Origin: Candidatus Altimarinota bacterium | Lineage (GTDB): Bacteria; Patescibacteriota; Gracilibacteria; UBA4473 | Direction: 5' to 3' | DNA: 52,802 nt | Assembly (NCBI GenBank): GCA_021736215.1 | Contig: JAIPGI010000008.1 | Location: 1 to 52,802, forward strand | Shown here: positions 40,271-47,790 of the stretch, one piece after another | Position numbering within the stretch: position 1 is the stretch's first letter | Layout: every line of letters begins with the position of its first letter | The notes under the pieces: generated by a model | What the model saw: the letters and a program-made list of their open reading frames with translations, nothing else | What the model was told of the DNA's origin: nothing | The model's database searches: none | Position numbers and translations under genes: made by a program

Positions 40271-42412
40271 ATGATTGAGGTTTCCCTTCCTCCCTCGAAA
40301 TCACTTTCACTTCGGGCAATCGTTTTGAACTATTTAAGCGGAGAGAAAACAGTGATAGAGAATCTTGCGCATTGTGACGATGTGAAATATTTAAAAGGAG
40401 CTTTTGACGTATTAAAAAACACTCCTCAATCCTCCTTTTCTCGAGAGAAAGAGTTCTTTGTTGGAGAAGGGGGAGCGGTTGCTCGATTTCTGGCAGTTTT
40501 GAGCTTGGTTCAAAAACAACCCTTTATGCTGCACGGTTCAAGCAGATTGCATGAACGACCTATGAAGGACCTATTTGATGCGTTAAAAAGTTTGGGCGTC
40601 AAAATCGAATATCTTGGAAAACTTGGTTTTTTACCAATTCGATTCCAGAGTTCAAACTCTAAATCTGTGAGTTCGAACTCGATACAAATATCAGGGAAAA
40701 TATCTTCTCAGTTTGTGAGCGCACTTTTATTAGTTGCTCCGGCACTTCCAAAGGGTCTCGAAATAGAGTTAACCGATACACTTGTCTCTCGACCATATGT
40801 TGAAATGACTTTAGAAATGCTTCACCTTTGGGGAGTGAGGTATAAAGTTTCATCAAATTTTAAAATCTTTACCGTTTTTCCGGGATTTAATCCGCCTTCA
40901 AAATTCACCATCCCAGTAGATTGTACGGCGGCGAGCTATCCAATTGCATATTCGCTTCTCAGCAGAAAATCAATAAAAATTCTCAATTATGGAGAAAAAA
41001 TAATGCAAGGCGACGAGGCCTTTTTGGGAATAGCTCATAAGTTTGGAGCGAAGATTCTCCGTTCTGCTGAGTGCGTAGAAGTGCATCCTCCTCAAAAACT
41101 CAAAAGATTGGAATCAGTGAGTTTTGAATGTATTCCCGATACAGCGATGGCGGCGATGGGAATTGCAGTTTTTGCTGACGGAATATCGGAATTTACAGGG
41201 ATTCAAACTCTTCGAGTGAAGGAATCGGATCGAATACGAGCTATGAGTGAGGGGTTAAGAGCTTTGGGGATAAAAGTAGAGGTTGAAGCCGATATAATGA
41301 GAATTTATGGTAATCCAAAATTTCAAATTAAAAATTCAAAATTAAAAATTAACTCATACAATGATCACAGAATTGCGATGGTGTTTGGTGTCATCGAAAA
41401 AGCGCTTGCTCTCAATTTTGGTATTTCAAACCCAGAATGCGTATCCAAATCTTGGGTACATTTTTGGTTGGAATTAGCGGATTGGGCAGGAGAATTGAGG
41501 AAAGTATCAGCGGTTATTTTAAAGAGAGAGGTCCCTCTCCTTACTCCTCCCCCTAAGGGGGAGGAAAATTCCCCCTCCCTTAGGGAGGGGGTGAGGGAGC
41601 GGGATAATGCATGGACAAAAAAACAAAAATTCTCAGATCAAATTTTAGAACGAGTAAGAGGGCTTAGAAAAAATCAAACAGATGCAGAAGGTCTTTTGTG
41701 GGCACTGCTCCGAAATAAAAACATGGAAGGTCTTAAATTTCGTCGTCAACACTCAATAGGAAAATATATAGTTGATTTTTATTGCCATGAAGCGGGATTA
41801 GTTATTGAACTTGACGGAGGGGGGCATGTAGAAAAAAAACAAGAAATGTATGATAAAAAAAGAGATGAATTTTTAAAATCACATAAACTGAAAATTTTGA
41901 GAATTTGGAATAACGATGTTTTTCAAAATTTAGAAGGGGTAGTAGATGAAATACTGGCAAGTATTGATGTCCCTCTCCTTACTCCTCCTCTTAAGGGAGA
42001 GGAAAATTCCCCCTCCCTTAGGGAGGGGGTGAGGGGGCGGGATATTCAGTATCTCATTGTTAAAAAGCCACGACGCAATTATGCATGGCAATTCCCCCAA
42101 GGTGGTGTTGAAAAAGGAGAATCAGGGATTCAAGCTGCCAAAAGAGAGCTTGGTGAAGAATGTGGGAATTCTCTGAAAGTGTCATTTCAAAAAACCCCAC
42201 GGGGAGAATACAAATACTTTTTCCCAGAGGATTTTCCTCGATATTTTGAAGGTATCAAGGGTGCACATGTCACATTTTTTCAAGCGAATCTGCTGAAGGG
42301 GGAAATAGAACTGGATACAAACGAACTTGAAACATTTTTTTGGGTTACAAAGGAGCAATTACCAAAATATTTCTACAAAGATTATTGGGAAGTGGTTCGA
42401 AAATTTTTATAA
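40271..42412 (+). CDS. aroA: AroA (EPSP synthase)-NUDIX fusion interrupted in frame by a DUF559 nuclease cassette
   Basis: A 713-residue ORF. Residues 1 to about 405 are 3-phosphoshikimate 1-carboxyvinyltransferase: PPSKSLSLRAIVL, SSRLHERPMKDL, ISSQFVSALLL, CIPDTAMAAMG, LRVKESDRIRAM, YNDHRIAM, SKSWVHFW. Residues about 412-420 (RKVSAVILKR) look like the first strand of a NUDIX domain, which continues only after residue about 590 (IQYLIVKKPRRNYAWQFPQGG, with the box GGVEKGES..AAKRELGEECG). Between them lie a repeat, a DUF559 PD-(D/E)xK nuclease domain (LRKNQTDAEGLLWALLR, KFRRQHSIGKYIVDFYC, LVIELDGG; about 460-565) and a second repeat. No stop interrupts the frame. The nuclease has no in-frame ATG of its own at the domain start. 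Whether the NUDIX part still folds is unknown. Confidence 0.9.
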   Translation: MIEVSLPPSKSLSLRAIVLNYLSGEKTVIENLAHCDDVKYLKGAFDVLKNTPQSSFSREKEFFVGEGGAVARFLAVLSLVQKQPFMLHGSSRLHERPMKDLFDALKSLGVKIEYLGKLGFLPIRFQSSNSKSVSSNSIQISGKISSQFVSALLLVAPALPKGLEIELTDTLVSRPYVEMTLEMLHLWGVRYKVSSNFKIFTVFPGFNPPSKFTIPVDCTAASYPIAYSLLSRKSIKILNYGEKIMQGDEAFLGIAHKFGAKILRSAECVEVHPPQKLKRLESVSFECIPDTAMAAMGIAVFADGISEFTGIQTLRVKESDRIRAMSEGLRALGIKVEVEADIMRIYGNPKFQIKNSKLKINSYNDHRIAMVFGVIEKALALNFGISNPECVSKSWVHFWLELADWAGELRKVSAVILKREVPLLTPPPKGEENSPSLREGVRERDNAWTKKQKFSDQILERVRGLRKNQTDAEGLLWALLRNKNMEGLKFRRQHSIGKYIVDFYCHEAGLVIELDGGGHVEKKQEMYDKKRDEFLKSHKLKILRIWNNDVFQNLEGVVDEILASIDVPLLTPPLKGEENSPSLREGVRGRDIQYLIVKKPRRNYAWQFPQGGVEKGESGIQAAKRELGEECGNSLKVSFQKTPRGEYKYFFPEDFPRYFEGIKGAHVTFFQANLLKGEIELDTNELETFFWVTKEQLPKYFYKDYWEVVRKFL
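41531..41606. repeat. Left 76-bp repeat of the DUF559 cassette
   Basis: Contains hairpins TCCTCCCCC-TAA-GGGGGAGGA and CCCCCTCCC-TTA-GGGAGGGGG. Differs from the right copy at only about four positions. Confidence 0.9.
41969..42044. repeat. Right 76-bp repeat of the DUF559 cassette
   Basis: Same orientation as the left copy, also beginning GTCCCTCTCC and ending GCGGGATA. The first hairpin carries paired changes (CCTCTTAAGGGAGAGG), so the stem is largely kept. Confidence 0.9.
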
Positions 42413-43978: not shown

Positions 43979-45481
43979 ATGAAACAATGGTTCTTGATTT
44001 CGCTTTTCCTTCCCCTTGTGGTATTTGCTCAAACACCTGTGGATAGACCCCAGTTTGAGGAAGAAAAAATAGTTCCAAGTATTGCCGTGGATGAATTTAT
44101 CGAAGTAGGAAAGAAAGCTCTTTTTGATGCCTCTCAAACCAAACGTATTGCGCCAATAAATGGAAGTCCCGTGTTTTCTTGGGATTTCGGTGATGACTCT
44201 CGAATGCAATGGGGAGAACAAATTGCTCATTTATATGAAAAACCAGGGAAATATACGGTTTCCCTTCACGTGCGTCAGGGATTAGAAAGACAACAAATTA
44301 CAAAAAATATTGTCATTTTCGATACAAAAGGCGTTTTGGTATCCGATTCCGAAGATAATGCTGATGATATTATCTCTCAAGCGGGAGAACATGGAATTTG
44401 GCTTGAAAACGTTGCTTATAGCAAAGGAGAAACTGGATTTTCTTCTGAAGAAGAGTTTATACGACGAATCCAAGAAAAAATGGAATTTGTAAAAGAAGCT
44501 AAACTTATAGTTTTTACTTCTCAATCATTACCAGCGTTTCAAAATTTTGCTCAATTTTGGCAAAAGATTTCTCCAGAAGCAAAATTTGATATCAAAGAAA
44601 AACTCTGGGTTCAAATTTCCGATTCGTCTTTGGACAAAGTCGGGAAGATTCTTCAACCCATCTTTTCCATATTAAAACCTAAATTTATTTTATTGACTCG
44701 TCCAGAGGCACTGAATCCTGTTTTCGAAAGAACTGAAGGTGCTGAGGTTATTGAAAAACTTAAGTCTCGAGAAATTGAATTTCGTATTATTGACGAGAGA
44801 AGTTCTACTTCTCCACTTTTATTTTTATCCAACTTAACGACATATTTCGTGTCACACGGAATTTCTCAAAATGTTATTTATCTGCTTCTAGCGGTACCTT
44901 TTATTGTTTTTATTATTGCATTTTTACGACAATTTGTGGGGATTTCTACTTTTGGTGTTTATGCGCCACTTATGTTAGCTTTGAGTTTCATGGTGTTGGG
45001 TTTCCATTTCGGGCTCTTGGTGTTTGCGGTGGTGATGCTCGTGAGTTACCTTATTCGTATTCTCTTCGAAAAGATTGAACTGCTCTATATTCCAAAAGTG
45101 AGCTTGCTTCTGAGTATTTTGGCACTTTCATTCTTTCTTGTCTTGGGGTTGGCAGTATATTTCAACTCTTCAGTAAATCTTACCCTCACGATTTTTCCGA
45201 TGCTCGTAATGGCAACTCTGTCGGAGAAATTCCTTTCAGCTCAAGCAAGTTCAGGAATGAAGCAAGCACTTTTTGCAGCAGGCGAGACGGTAGTAGTTTC
45301 TTTTATGGGATATTTTTTAGTGACGTGGGGATGGATGGAAAATGCGTTACTCGCTATGCCAGAACTTATTATCCTTCCCATTTGTGGACTTATTTGGTTG
45401 GGGCGATTTACAGGACTTCGATTGAGTGAATATATAAAATTTCGATCTCTTTTCCGAGAAGAGGATACGAATGAAGAATAA
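43979..45481 (+). CDS. PKD-domain protein with 7TM (transglutaminase-associated 7TM type)
   Basis: A 500-residue membrane protein. Signal peptide MKQWFLISLFLPLVVFAQ, a PKD domain (about 45-120: FDASQTK, VFSWDFGDDS, YEKPGKYTVSLHV), an extracytoplasmic region of about 150 residues, then seven hydrophobic helices from about residue 297. The helix block FLRQFVGISTFGVYAPLMLALSFMVLG and KIELLYIPKVSLLLSILAL matches the 7TM domain found with inactive transglutaminase-like domains (7TM_transglut). No Cys-His-Asp triad was seen. Five bases separate it from the ATP-grasp fusion gene, so they form an operon. This neighbour pairing is known for the family in proteobacteria; here the N-terminal domain is PKD-like. 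Confidence 0.85.
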   Translation: MKQWFLISLFLPLVVFAQTPVDRPQFEEEKIVPSIAVDEFIEVGKKALFDASQTKRIAPINGSPVFSWDFGDDSRMQWGEQIAHLYEKPGKYTVSLHVRQGLERQQITKNIVIFDTKGVLVSDSEDNADDIISQAGEHGIWLENVAYSKGETGFSSEEEFIRRIQEKMEFVKEAKLIVFTSQSLPAFQNFAQFWQKISPEAKFDIKEKLWVQISDSSLDKVGKILQPIFSILKPKFILLTRPEALNPVFERTEGAEVIEKLKSREIEFRIIDERSSTSPLLFLSNLTTYFVSHGISQNVIYLLLAVPFIVFIIAFLRQFVGISTFGVYAPLMLALSFMVLGFHFGLLVFAVVMLVSYLIRILFEKIELLYIPKVSLLLSILALSFFLVLGLAVYFNSSVNLTLTIFPMLVMATLSEKFLSAQASSGMKQALFAAGETVVVSFMGYFLVTWGWMENALLAMPELIILPICGLIWLGRFTGLRLSEYIKFRSLFREEDTNEE

Positions 45482-45486
45482 CTGTC

Positions 45487-47790
45487 ATGTCATTTTTTAA
45501 AAAAGTTTCCAGTATTTTGGGTATTAACTCGAGAAATCTCGACTATATTGCCAAATACAATTCCTCTGCTCATAAGAAATTTGCCGACAACAAAATTTTT
45601 ACAAAACGCTTTCTCGAATCCCGAAATATCGGAGTGGCGAAGTTATACAATGTAGTTCATAAGTATACAGAACTAACTCCCGATTTTTTTGAGTCTCTGC
45701 CAGAGAGTTTTGTTATCAAGCCGAATAGGGGATATGGAGGAGCGGGAATTTTAGTCATTGTTCGAAAACAAGGAAAAGATTGGATTACCGCTTCAGAGAA
45801 GAAGTTAGATGAAGAATATTTATACAGACATTGTATTTCTATTTTAGATGGGAAATATTCTATTTCAGGAATGCACGATAAAGTGATATTTGAAGAGCGT
45901 CTTGAGATACATCCAGAACTTCGAAAACTAACAGAAATAGGGCTCCCTGATATCCGCGTGATCGTATTTAATAAGGTTCCTGTTTTAGCGATGATTCGTA
46001 TGCCTACATACGAATCAGAGGGAAAGGCTAATATGGAAATGGGAGCAATTGGGATGGGAATTGATATTGGGACTGGAAAAACTACAGGTGGAGCACTCCA
46101 CTCAAAATTTGTAAAAAAACTTCCCAATGGGCAATCTACTATCGGATTTCAAGTGCCATTTTGGGATGAAATACTATTCACTGCTGCCAAAATACAACAC
46201 GTAACTGGCATAGGTTTTTTGGGAGTAGATATAGTTTTGACGCGTACAGGAGTGAAGGTGTTGGAAATGAACGCTCGTGCTGGACTCAAGATACAAATTG
46301 CCAACAAAATCCCTCTCAAAATACGGTTAGAAAAGGTATCCGATTTGAAGGTGCTCACTCCTGAAGATGGAGTGGATGTAGCAAAAACGCTTTTTACCCA
46401 AAAAGCCTCTACCGCCGAAGTCGTCCCTTCCCATAAAAAAATTATCGGAATTAGAGAAAATGTGATTCTGAATTCGGAAAAGCCTCAAACGGTTATCGCC
46501 AAAATTGATTTATCAGCCCAAGAAAATGTTATTTCTTCCCGATTTTATGAAGGATCTATTTTGGATATTTCAATAGCAGGAAAGCGCATAAAAGTCCCTG
46601 TGCGAAAAGGATCAGTGGGAGATGTGGATCTACTTTTGGCAGGAAAATTTCTTTCGGACTTTTTTATTGATCCTAATAAGAAAACAGAAACAAAATCCAT
46701 GAAATCGATGACTTCTCACTTAGATGAAAAGATGATATTCAATGTTGATGAGAAATTATGTGAAATTGATGAACAGATAAAACTTTTGTCCTATATCAAT
46801 CCTCGAAATTTAGAAGAACAAAAAACGCTCTTTCTAGCGAATCCAGAGTTTTCTCCACGATTTTCATATCGTGAATTCGATTTGGATGCAGAATCTATGA
46901 GACGAGATCTTAAGCGGTTACCAGAAGTTGATCACATCCTCTATCCGCTTTTTGAAAATAAGATATATGAAATCGAGAAAAAAATAACAGTCATACAGAG
47001 TGTCGGTTCCAAAGATTTCCCAGAAGCTTCGAAACATCTTTTTGGAGCGGTTACAGAAAATACTTATCGTTTGGCACTTGATTTCTTGAAAAAACATTCA
47101 CAGAGCGATGTCCCTGACGAAAGTAAGGAATTGGAACTCAAAGAAGCAAAAAATATCATCCATGATTTTTTGAAAACACATAAATTATCTCATTGGAAAC
47201 TCAAAGAAGTGCAGGAGACTGTTTCTGACATACAGGTTACAAAACGAAATCTTATTCTCCTCAAAAAAGGAGCAACATTTCGTGAAAATAGACTCAAAGC
47301 ACTCCTGGTCCATGAGATAGGGACGCATGTATTCCGATTTGAAAATGGGAAAATGCAGTCATTGCGAATTTTTGAACGAGGAACTGCTGGATATCTCAAA
47401 ACAGAAGAAGGATTGGCTATTTGGAATCAAAATAAAATTGGGCTTACTCTTGGAGAGAAATTCCTCAAACCAGCTTATCAGGTGGTGGCCATTCACATGG
47501 CAAAAAAAATGTCTTTTTGTGACTTATTCCACTTCCTGAAGGATACATATGATTTGAATGATGAACTGGCATGGAGGGTTTGTGTCAAAGCCAAGAGGGG
47601 ATTTCGAGATACTGCCGATGTGGGGGCCTTTTCCAAAGATCAGATTTATTTCACGGGACACAAGGAAATCGAGAAATTTGTAGAAAAAGGAGGAGAAATC
47701 TCAGATCTCTATATTGGAAAAATAAAAATAGAAGATCTCAAACTTTTGAAGGATGTCAAAAATATGAAACCAGCGAAGTTTCTTCTTTAG
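45487..47790 (+). CDS. ATP-grasp ligase - RimB-like domain - DUF1704 metallopeptidase fusion
   Basis: A 767-residue, three-part protein. Residues about 1-300: an ATP-grasp domain of the alpha-L-glutamate-ligase-like type, with SFVIKPNRGYGGAGIL (Lys 78, ATP site), LPDIRVIVFNKVPVLAMIRMP and VKVLEMNARAGLKIQIAN (Glu 260 and Asn 262, metal binding). Residues about 322-405: IIGIRENVIL..TVIAKIDLSAQENVISS, resembling the RimB/retropepsin-like zinc-protease family but with DLSA where DTGA is expected, so likely inactive. Residues about 430-760: DUF1704 with HEIGTH (609-614) and TEEGLA (639-644), the zinc ligands and catalytic Glu of the family that includes the tubulin tyrosine carboxypeptidase MATCAP. 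A ligase and a carboxypeptidase on one chain suggest addition and removal of C-terminal amino acids; the target is unknown. Confidence 0.9.
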   Translation: MSFFKKVSSILGINSRNLDYIAKYNSSAHKKFADNKIFTKRFLESRNIGVAKLYNVVHKYTELTPDFFESLPESFVIKPNRGYGGAGILVIVRKQGKDWITASEKKLDEEYLYRHCISILDGKYSISGMHDKVIFEERLEIHPELRKLTEIGLPDIRVIVFNKVPVLAMIRMPTYESEGKANMEMGAIGMGIDIGTGKTTGGALHSKFVKKLPNGQSTIGFQVPFWDEILFTAAKIQHVTGIGFLGVDIVLTRTGVKVLEMNARAGLKIQIANKIPLKIRLEKVSDLKVLTPEDGVDVAKTLFTQKASTAEVVPSHKKIIGIRENVILNSEKPQTVIAKIDLSAQENVISSRFYEGSILDISIAGKRIKVPVRKGSVGDVDLLLAGKFLSDFFIDPNKKTETKSMKSMTSHLDEKMIFNVDEKLCEIDEQIKLLSYINPRNLEEQKTLFLANPEFSPRFSYREFDLDAESMRRDLKRLPEVDHILYPLFENKIYEIEKKITVIQSVGSKDFPEASKHLFGAVTENTYRLALDFLKKHSQSDVPDESKELELKEAKNIIHDFLKTHKLSHWKLKEVQETVSDIQVTKRNLILLKKGATFRENRLKALLVHEIGTHVFRFENGKMQSLRIFERGTAGYLKTEEGLAIWNQNKIGLTLGEKFLKPAYQVVAIHMAKKMSFCDLFHFLKDTYDLNDELAWRVCVKAKRGFRDTADVGAFSKDQIYFTGHKEIEKFVEKGGEISDLYIGKIKIEDLKLLKDVKNMKPAKFLL

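Follow-up and report, generated by a model that had tools for sequence, protein, structure and literature searches.

A predicted ligase-retropepsin-carboxypeptidase fusion beside a Glu-Glu-ended membrane protein in Gracilibacteria as a candidate for reversible C-terminal glutamylation

We analyzed a window of 52,802 nucleotides (the whole stretch of DNA studied here) from a Candidatus Altimarinota bacterium of the Gracilibacteria, the source assembly of which (GCA_021736215.1) is 1.01 Mb long and 93% complete. A single gene in the window encodes, in this order, a RimK-fold ATP-grasp domain, a degenerate RimB/RloA-like retropepsin domain and a MATCAP (DUF1704) metallocarboxypeptidase domain. 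The gene begins 5 nt past the stop of the preceding gene (45481), which encodes a 7TM membrane protein ending in Glu-Glu. We propose, with a probability of about 0.5, that the fusion protein and the 7TM protein form a membrane-coupled device for reversible C-terminal glutamylation. Table 1 lists the features of the locus.

Table 1. Features of the fusion locus, in positions of the window
Feature	Position	Strand	Evidence
RloB-like membrane protein, 500 aa (signal peptide, PKD domain, 7TM_transglut region, short cytosolic tail)	43979..45481	+	Pfam, hydropathy
C-terminal residues 476-500 of the 7TM protein with a Glu-Glu end (codons 45473-45478); predicted to serve as acceptor/substrate or for docking	45404..45478	+	Tail counts
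Three-part fusion protein, 767 aa, ATG start	45487..47790	+	ORF reading, Pfam, model
ATP-grasp domain, residues 16-285, RimK/ArgX fold; predicted amino-acid (glutamate) ligase	45532..46341	+	PF14397 E 3.7e-60; fold; invariant residues
Degenerate RimB/RloA-like retropepsin domain, residues 312-401	46420..46689	+	Profile-profile comparison, fold
Decayed motif D341-L342-S343 (DTG in active relatives)	46507..46515	+	Motif alignment
MATCAP/DUF1704 metallocarboxypeptidase domain (Pfam span, residues 454-758)	46846..47760	+	PF08014 E 7.4e-48; fold
HEIGTH metal-binding motif, residues 609-614 (H609, E610, H614)	47311..47328	+	Aligned to human MATCAP HEIGTH
TEEGLA motif, residues 639-644, third metal ligand E641	47401..47418	+	Invariance; EEG site in PMC10499314

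Architecture of the fusion protein

The initial annotation had read the frame as one protein of three parts, and both the frame and the architecture were confirmed by HMM searches, profile-profile comparison and fold, the three parts resembling ArgX/RimK, RloA and human MATCAP in turn. An AlphaFold2 model built from 54 homologues had a mean pLDDT of 89.7 and a pTM of 0.55, so that the single domains are reliable but their mutual arrangement is not. By the initial annotation's own criteria, the three-part reading would have failed if the ATP-grasp or the zinc site were incomplete, or if the middle or the C-terminal domain came from a different family; the key residues were invariant in the 54 homologues, and both domains fell in the families proposed. 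Looking for the same fusion elsewhere, as had been suggested, we found it in many independent genomes of several groups, and this recurrence ruled out an assembly join or a chance reading frame as its origin.

The ATP-grasp domain matched ATPgrasp_ST (PF14397) with 203.9 bits (gathering cut-off, 31.4), and in VIA-align its fold matched ArgX (Z 18.1) and RimK (5zct, Z 17.6). Residues K78, G82, G85, G87, E136, D155, R157, D248, E260, N262 and R264 were invariant in the 54 homologues. These results agree with its earlier placement in the RimK-like class of amino-acid ligases. The domain scored below the cut-off of the RimK family PF08443 (18.3 versus 21 bits) and below the curated cut-off of TIGR02291 for RloC-type ligases (239 versus 314.2 bits). 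Judged by the latter score, the ligase is homologous to the RloC type and is not an equivalog of it. Glutamate is presumably the residue that it adds.

The C-terminal domain matched PF08014 with 163.8 bits (gathering cut-off, 27), and superposed on human MATCAP (7z5g) with a Z of 25.9 and an rmsd of 2.5 over 277 aligned residues. The metal-site residues H609, E610, H614 and E641 were invariant in the 54 homologues, and the EEG motif is the third metal site of MATCAP/TMCPs (PMC10499314). The assignment to DUF1704, made initially from HEIGTH and TEEGLA, thus stands, and from its sequence the domain is a predicted carboxypeptidase with an intact HExxxH...E site. The score against NCBIfam TIGR02421 (QEGLA equivalog) was 183.4 bits, below the curated cut-off of 338.65. 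Human MATCAP/TMCPs take off C-terminal glutamate and shorten poly-Glu chains, and MATCAP1 takes off tyrosine (PMC10499314).

For the middle part (residues ~312-401), an HMM search with the fusion's own sequence gave no match to PF05618. A profile from its own family was too weak (hhalign probability 31); after distant members had been added, the profile matched stand-alone RimB proteins with a probability of 98 (E 2e-13). Modelled alone, the domain had a pLDDT of 93.9 and a pTM of 0.84, and its best PDB matches were RloA (9g58, Z 11.9), RloA2 (9g59, 11.8) and DUF785 (2pma, 11.6), followed by an entry at 8.8. Since DTG reads DLS, the domain is not an active member of the RimB/RloA family; the initial annotation had described it as RimB-like with a lost DTG. 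By motif alignment, some relatives in the class retain DTG or DSG. No stand-alone RimB or separate RloA gene was found, in that PF05618 had no match elsewhere in the 93% complete genome.

The upstream 7TM protein and its tail

We then analyzed the 7TM protein, which the first reading had overlooked, as it had the clade-wide conservation and the two-part relatives with the retropepsin motif intact. The protein matched PF14402 (102 bits, residues 296-491) and PKD_4 (44 bits, residues 35-106), the PKD domain standing where RloB has an inactive transglutaminase domain, and it reached 57.9 bits against a cut-off of 900 for the RloB equivalog NF052267. Its gene lies directly 5' of the ligase gene in nearly all relatives with enough flanking sequence. 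Hydropathy and the positive-inside rule suggest that the tail is cytosolic.

The last residue of the 7TM protein was Glu in 85 of the 87 fused loci, and the last two were Glu-Glu in 78 of them. In the same loci, other ORFs of at least 200 aa ended in Glu in 25 of 464 cases (5%) and in Glu-Glu in a single case (0.2%). Conservation was confined to the very end (position -1, 83/85; position -2, 76/85; position -3, at most 23/85 alike); beyond position -3 the tail turns over, and its length varies. Two fused loci (L254 of G198 and L249 of G049) are exceptions: they keep the HExxxH and EG motifs, and their 7TM tail does not end in Glu. A by-product of the Shine-Dalgarno sequence of the next gene was also considered as the source of the Glu-Glu end and ruled out: 20 of 22 proteins still ended in Glu-Glu at gene gaps of at least 40 nt, and the codons were mostly GAA-GAA.

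Acidic tails were also found where MATCAP is encoded separately or was fused independently. The tails of L190 and L191, which have a separate MATCAP gene and a lost retropepsin motif, end in EEEE and EEE, that of the independently fused L194 ends in TEE, and that of L185 in QNE. When no MATCAP was present on the fetched locus, the tail was basic, neutral or without an acidic end in 42 of 43 cases, and the only Glu-Glu tails without MATCAP on the locus (L073 and L075) came from contigs cut inside the ligase gene. Since two-part systems with a complete ATP-grasp domain lack the Glu tail, the 7TM tail was not the ancestral substrate of the ligase. On the other hand, MATCAP alone does not require a Glu tail, because L158, L173 and L204 have an adjacent separate MATCAP gene, an intact DTG and a basic tail. 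In these sequence counts the Glu tail tracks MATCAP, not the ligase.

A plasmid of Halobacterium sp. DL1 (L259:3161-4928) carries an unannotated 589-aa frame in which a 7TM_transglut-like region is fused to the ATP-grasp ligase, leaving no free tail.

Distribution and the state of the retropepsin motif

Of 288 genomes sampled from the class, 201 had MATCAP, for the most part in frames of about 770-850 aa; within the source family it occurred in 18 of 20 genomes. The genomes of close relatives are named Candidatus Gracilibacteria, and more copies of the fusion were found in Peregrinibacteria, Magasanikbacteria and Uhrbacteria. Elsewhere in the phylum, this ligase is mostly a protein of 424-516 aa that has an intact retropepsin motif and lacks MATCAP. 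A tblastn search of plasmids gave partial matches, none covering 80% of the query. In literature searches without subscription papers, no description of MATCAP or DUF1704 combined with ATP-grasp was found; as evidence of novelty this is weak. In some genomes of the class (e.g., G032, G065 and G072), MATCAP stands alone in frames that contain numerous in-frame TGA codons, as would be expected if these Gracilibacteria read TGA as glycine. Frames of 856-922 aa in L121/L214 (G359) and L161 (G524) combine ATP-grasp with an intact retropepsin motif (DTG), and L214 has a second ATP-grasp domain on the same chain.

Of 134 distinct proteins, 59 have no fused MATCAP, and 57 of these keep D[TS]G; of the 75 in which MATCAP is fused, 5 keep it. 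The two losses outside fusions (L190 and L191, both reading NTG) both have MATCAP as an adjacent gene. Proteins of family f49 retain DTG by alignment; several genomes of this family (L206, L207 and L208) have a separate MATCAP gene on the opposite strand, 4-8 kb away from the two-part ligase, together with an intact DTG and no Glu tail. From this contrast between proteins with and without a fused MATCAP, the eraser was apparently swapped, MATCAP replacing the retropepsin. On the ATP-grasp tree, the fused state changed 2 times, the retropepsin motif was lost 8 times and the Glu tail changed 7 times. Counted over the sequences compared, motif loss and fusion are strongly associated, but the independent events behind this are few, and with so few of them sign tests on independent pairs were not significant.

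Proposed mechanism, alternatives and known systems

RimK extends S6 with glutamate at its C-terminus, and poly-Glu is the substrate cleaved by RimB and RloA (PMC12239564). The retropepsin and MATCAP erasers would therefore suit the same product, the former cleaving poly-Glu and the latter trimming C-terminal glutamate. In the mechanism we propose, the ATP-grasp domain, of RimK/RloC type, would attach glutamate at the C-terminus of a peptide, the most likely acceptor being the cytosolic tail of the upstream 7TM protein with its Glu-Glu end, and the MATCAP domain on the same chain would strip C-terminal glutamates. The retropepsin would be what remains of an earlier eraser, retained as a spacer with a fold of its own or as a peptide-binding module, and the periplasmic PKD/7TM part may control the switch. 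Both the role of the tail as substrate and this control are inferred. A fuller reading is quite possible, if somewhat short of even odds: a single-chain writer and eraser, kept across much of the class, would reversibly polyglutamylate the tail of its own membrane sensor, MATCAP having taken over from the retropepsin and the tail having evolved Glu-Glu to match. If true, this would be a bacterial counterpart of tubulin-tail glutamylation.

Because the tail tracks MATCAP and not the ligase, the main rival is that the Glu-Glu end sits in the MATCAP pocket as a dock or pseudosubstrate and tethers or inhibits the enzyme at the membrane, the real substrate being another protein or a soluble peptide. 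That only two glutamates are conserved, and that the Halobacterium 7TM part is covalently tethered to its ligase, would fit such docking. However, TMCPs remove just such a C-terminal Glu-Glu (PMC10499314), and it is at positions -1 and -2 that conservation is found, although a mere dock need not lie at the extreme C-terminus; we consider docking unlikely, though a serious contender. It was also considered that no protein is modified at all: the ATP-grasp domain would make a free peptide, oligo-glutamate or another, to be exported or sensed by the 7TM protein and broken down by MATCAP. RimK does make free poly-alpha-Glu, and loss of RloB/RloC relieves the phenotype of Pseudomonas lacking RloA (PMC12239564); ATPgrasp_ST is, by its Pfam name, linked to sugar-transfer pathways. 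Such peptide metabolism is rather improbable, as it leaves the conserved Glu-Glu end of a membrane protein unexplained.

Modification of the ribosome, in which the fusion would glutamylate and deglutamylate protein S6 as RimK does, was suggested by a fold match to the RimK-RpsF complex (5zk6). We regard it as very improbable: the host RpsF ends in ...SSLDL and not in Glu, and so lacks the usual RimK acceptor, the PF08443 score is under the cut-off, and the fusion gene is paired with a gene for a membrane protein. Equally doubtful is a tag of tyrosine or another amino acid, as in tubulin detyrosination. MATCAP1 does remove tyrosine (PMC10499314), and the specificity of the ligase is not readable from its fold, but the adjoining tail has a terminal Glu and not an aromatic residue.

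Several known systems are close to the locus. The Rlo operon of Pseudomonas comprises RloA, a retropepsin, RloB, an inactive transglutaminase-7TM protein, and RloC, an ATP-grasp protein; the RloB/RloC system governs osmotic tolerance, biofilm and antibiotic tolerance, and its substrate is unknown (PMC12239564). The fusion locus shares with it a RloB-like 7TM gene directly 5' of a RloC-like ATP-grasp gene (gap, 5 nt) and a RloA-fold retropepsin. Here, however, a single cytosolic chain carries the writer and a retropepsin that has lost its motif, along with an additional MATCAP eraser, PKD takes the place of the transglutaminase domain, and there is no separate RloA gene; the 7TM tail ends in EE, while RloB ends in ARS in Legionella and in GKDK in Aeromonas. 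The RimK/RimB system shares the RimK fold (Z 17.6), a RimB-family eraser domain and the expected poly-Glu chemistry, and differs from the locus, which has a fusion, another eraser, a membrane partner and an S6 tail without a Glu end.

The MATCAP/TMCP tubulin carboxypeptidases (7z5g, 7z6s) share with the fusion the fold (Z 25.9), the HExxxH and EEG site and acidic C-terminal tails as expected substrate, whereas the protein described here is bacterial and fused to a ligase, and no tubulin substrate is proposed. Two-part ATP-grasp-retropepsin proteins of other Patescibacteria (e.g., L124 and L126) have the same ligase, retropepsin position and upstream 7TM gene, but an intact DTG, no MATCAP and a basic 7TM tail. 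The initial annotation stated that separate genes of these families co-occur in proteobacteria; the co-occurring genes there are of two different kinds. Legionella has RloA, RloB and RloC as separate genes, and in Sinorhizobium a QEGLA/DUF1704 gene of the MATCAP family adjoins an ATP-grasp gene. The Sinorhizobium genes differ from the fusion in being separate, with the ATP-grasp annotated as glutathione synthase, an N-formylglutamate amidohydrolase also present and no 7TM partner. By sequence comparison, the fusion locus is related to the Rlo/Rim polyglutamylation systems, as a variant that falls outside their definitions at TIGR02291, TIGR02421, NF052267, the DTG motif and the separate RloA gene.

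For RloB/RloC-type systems, the locus points to the C-terminus of the adjacent 7TM protein as a candidate substrate and supplies a peptide for testing, KFRSLFREEDTNEE. It also appears to present one protease class decaying after another had joined the same chain, and it places a relative of tubulin carboxypeptidases beside a RimK-like ligase in bacteria.

Elsewhere in the window, a 713-aa frame (40271-42412, plus strand) consists of EPSP synthase, a DUF559 nuclease-like domain and a NUDIX domain. Near-identical G/C-rich repeats (about 41529-41606 and 41970-42045) border the DUF559 part on either side, which gives the impression that a DUF559 element inserted in frame and fused two genes.
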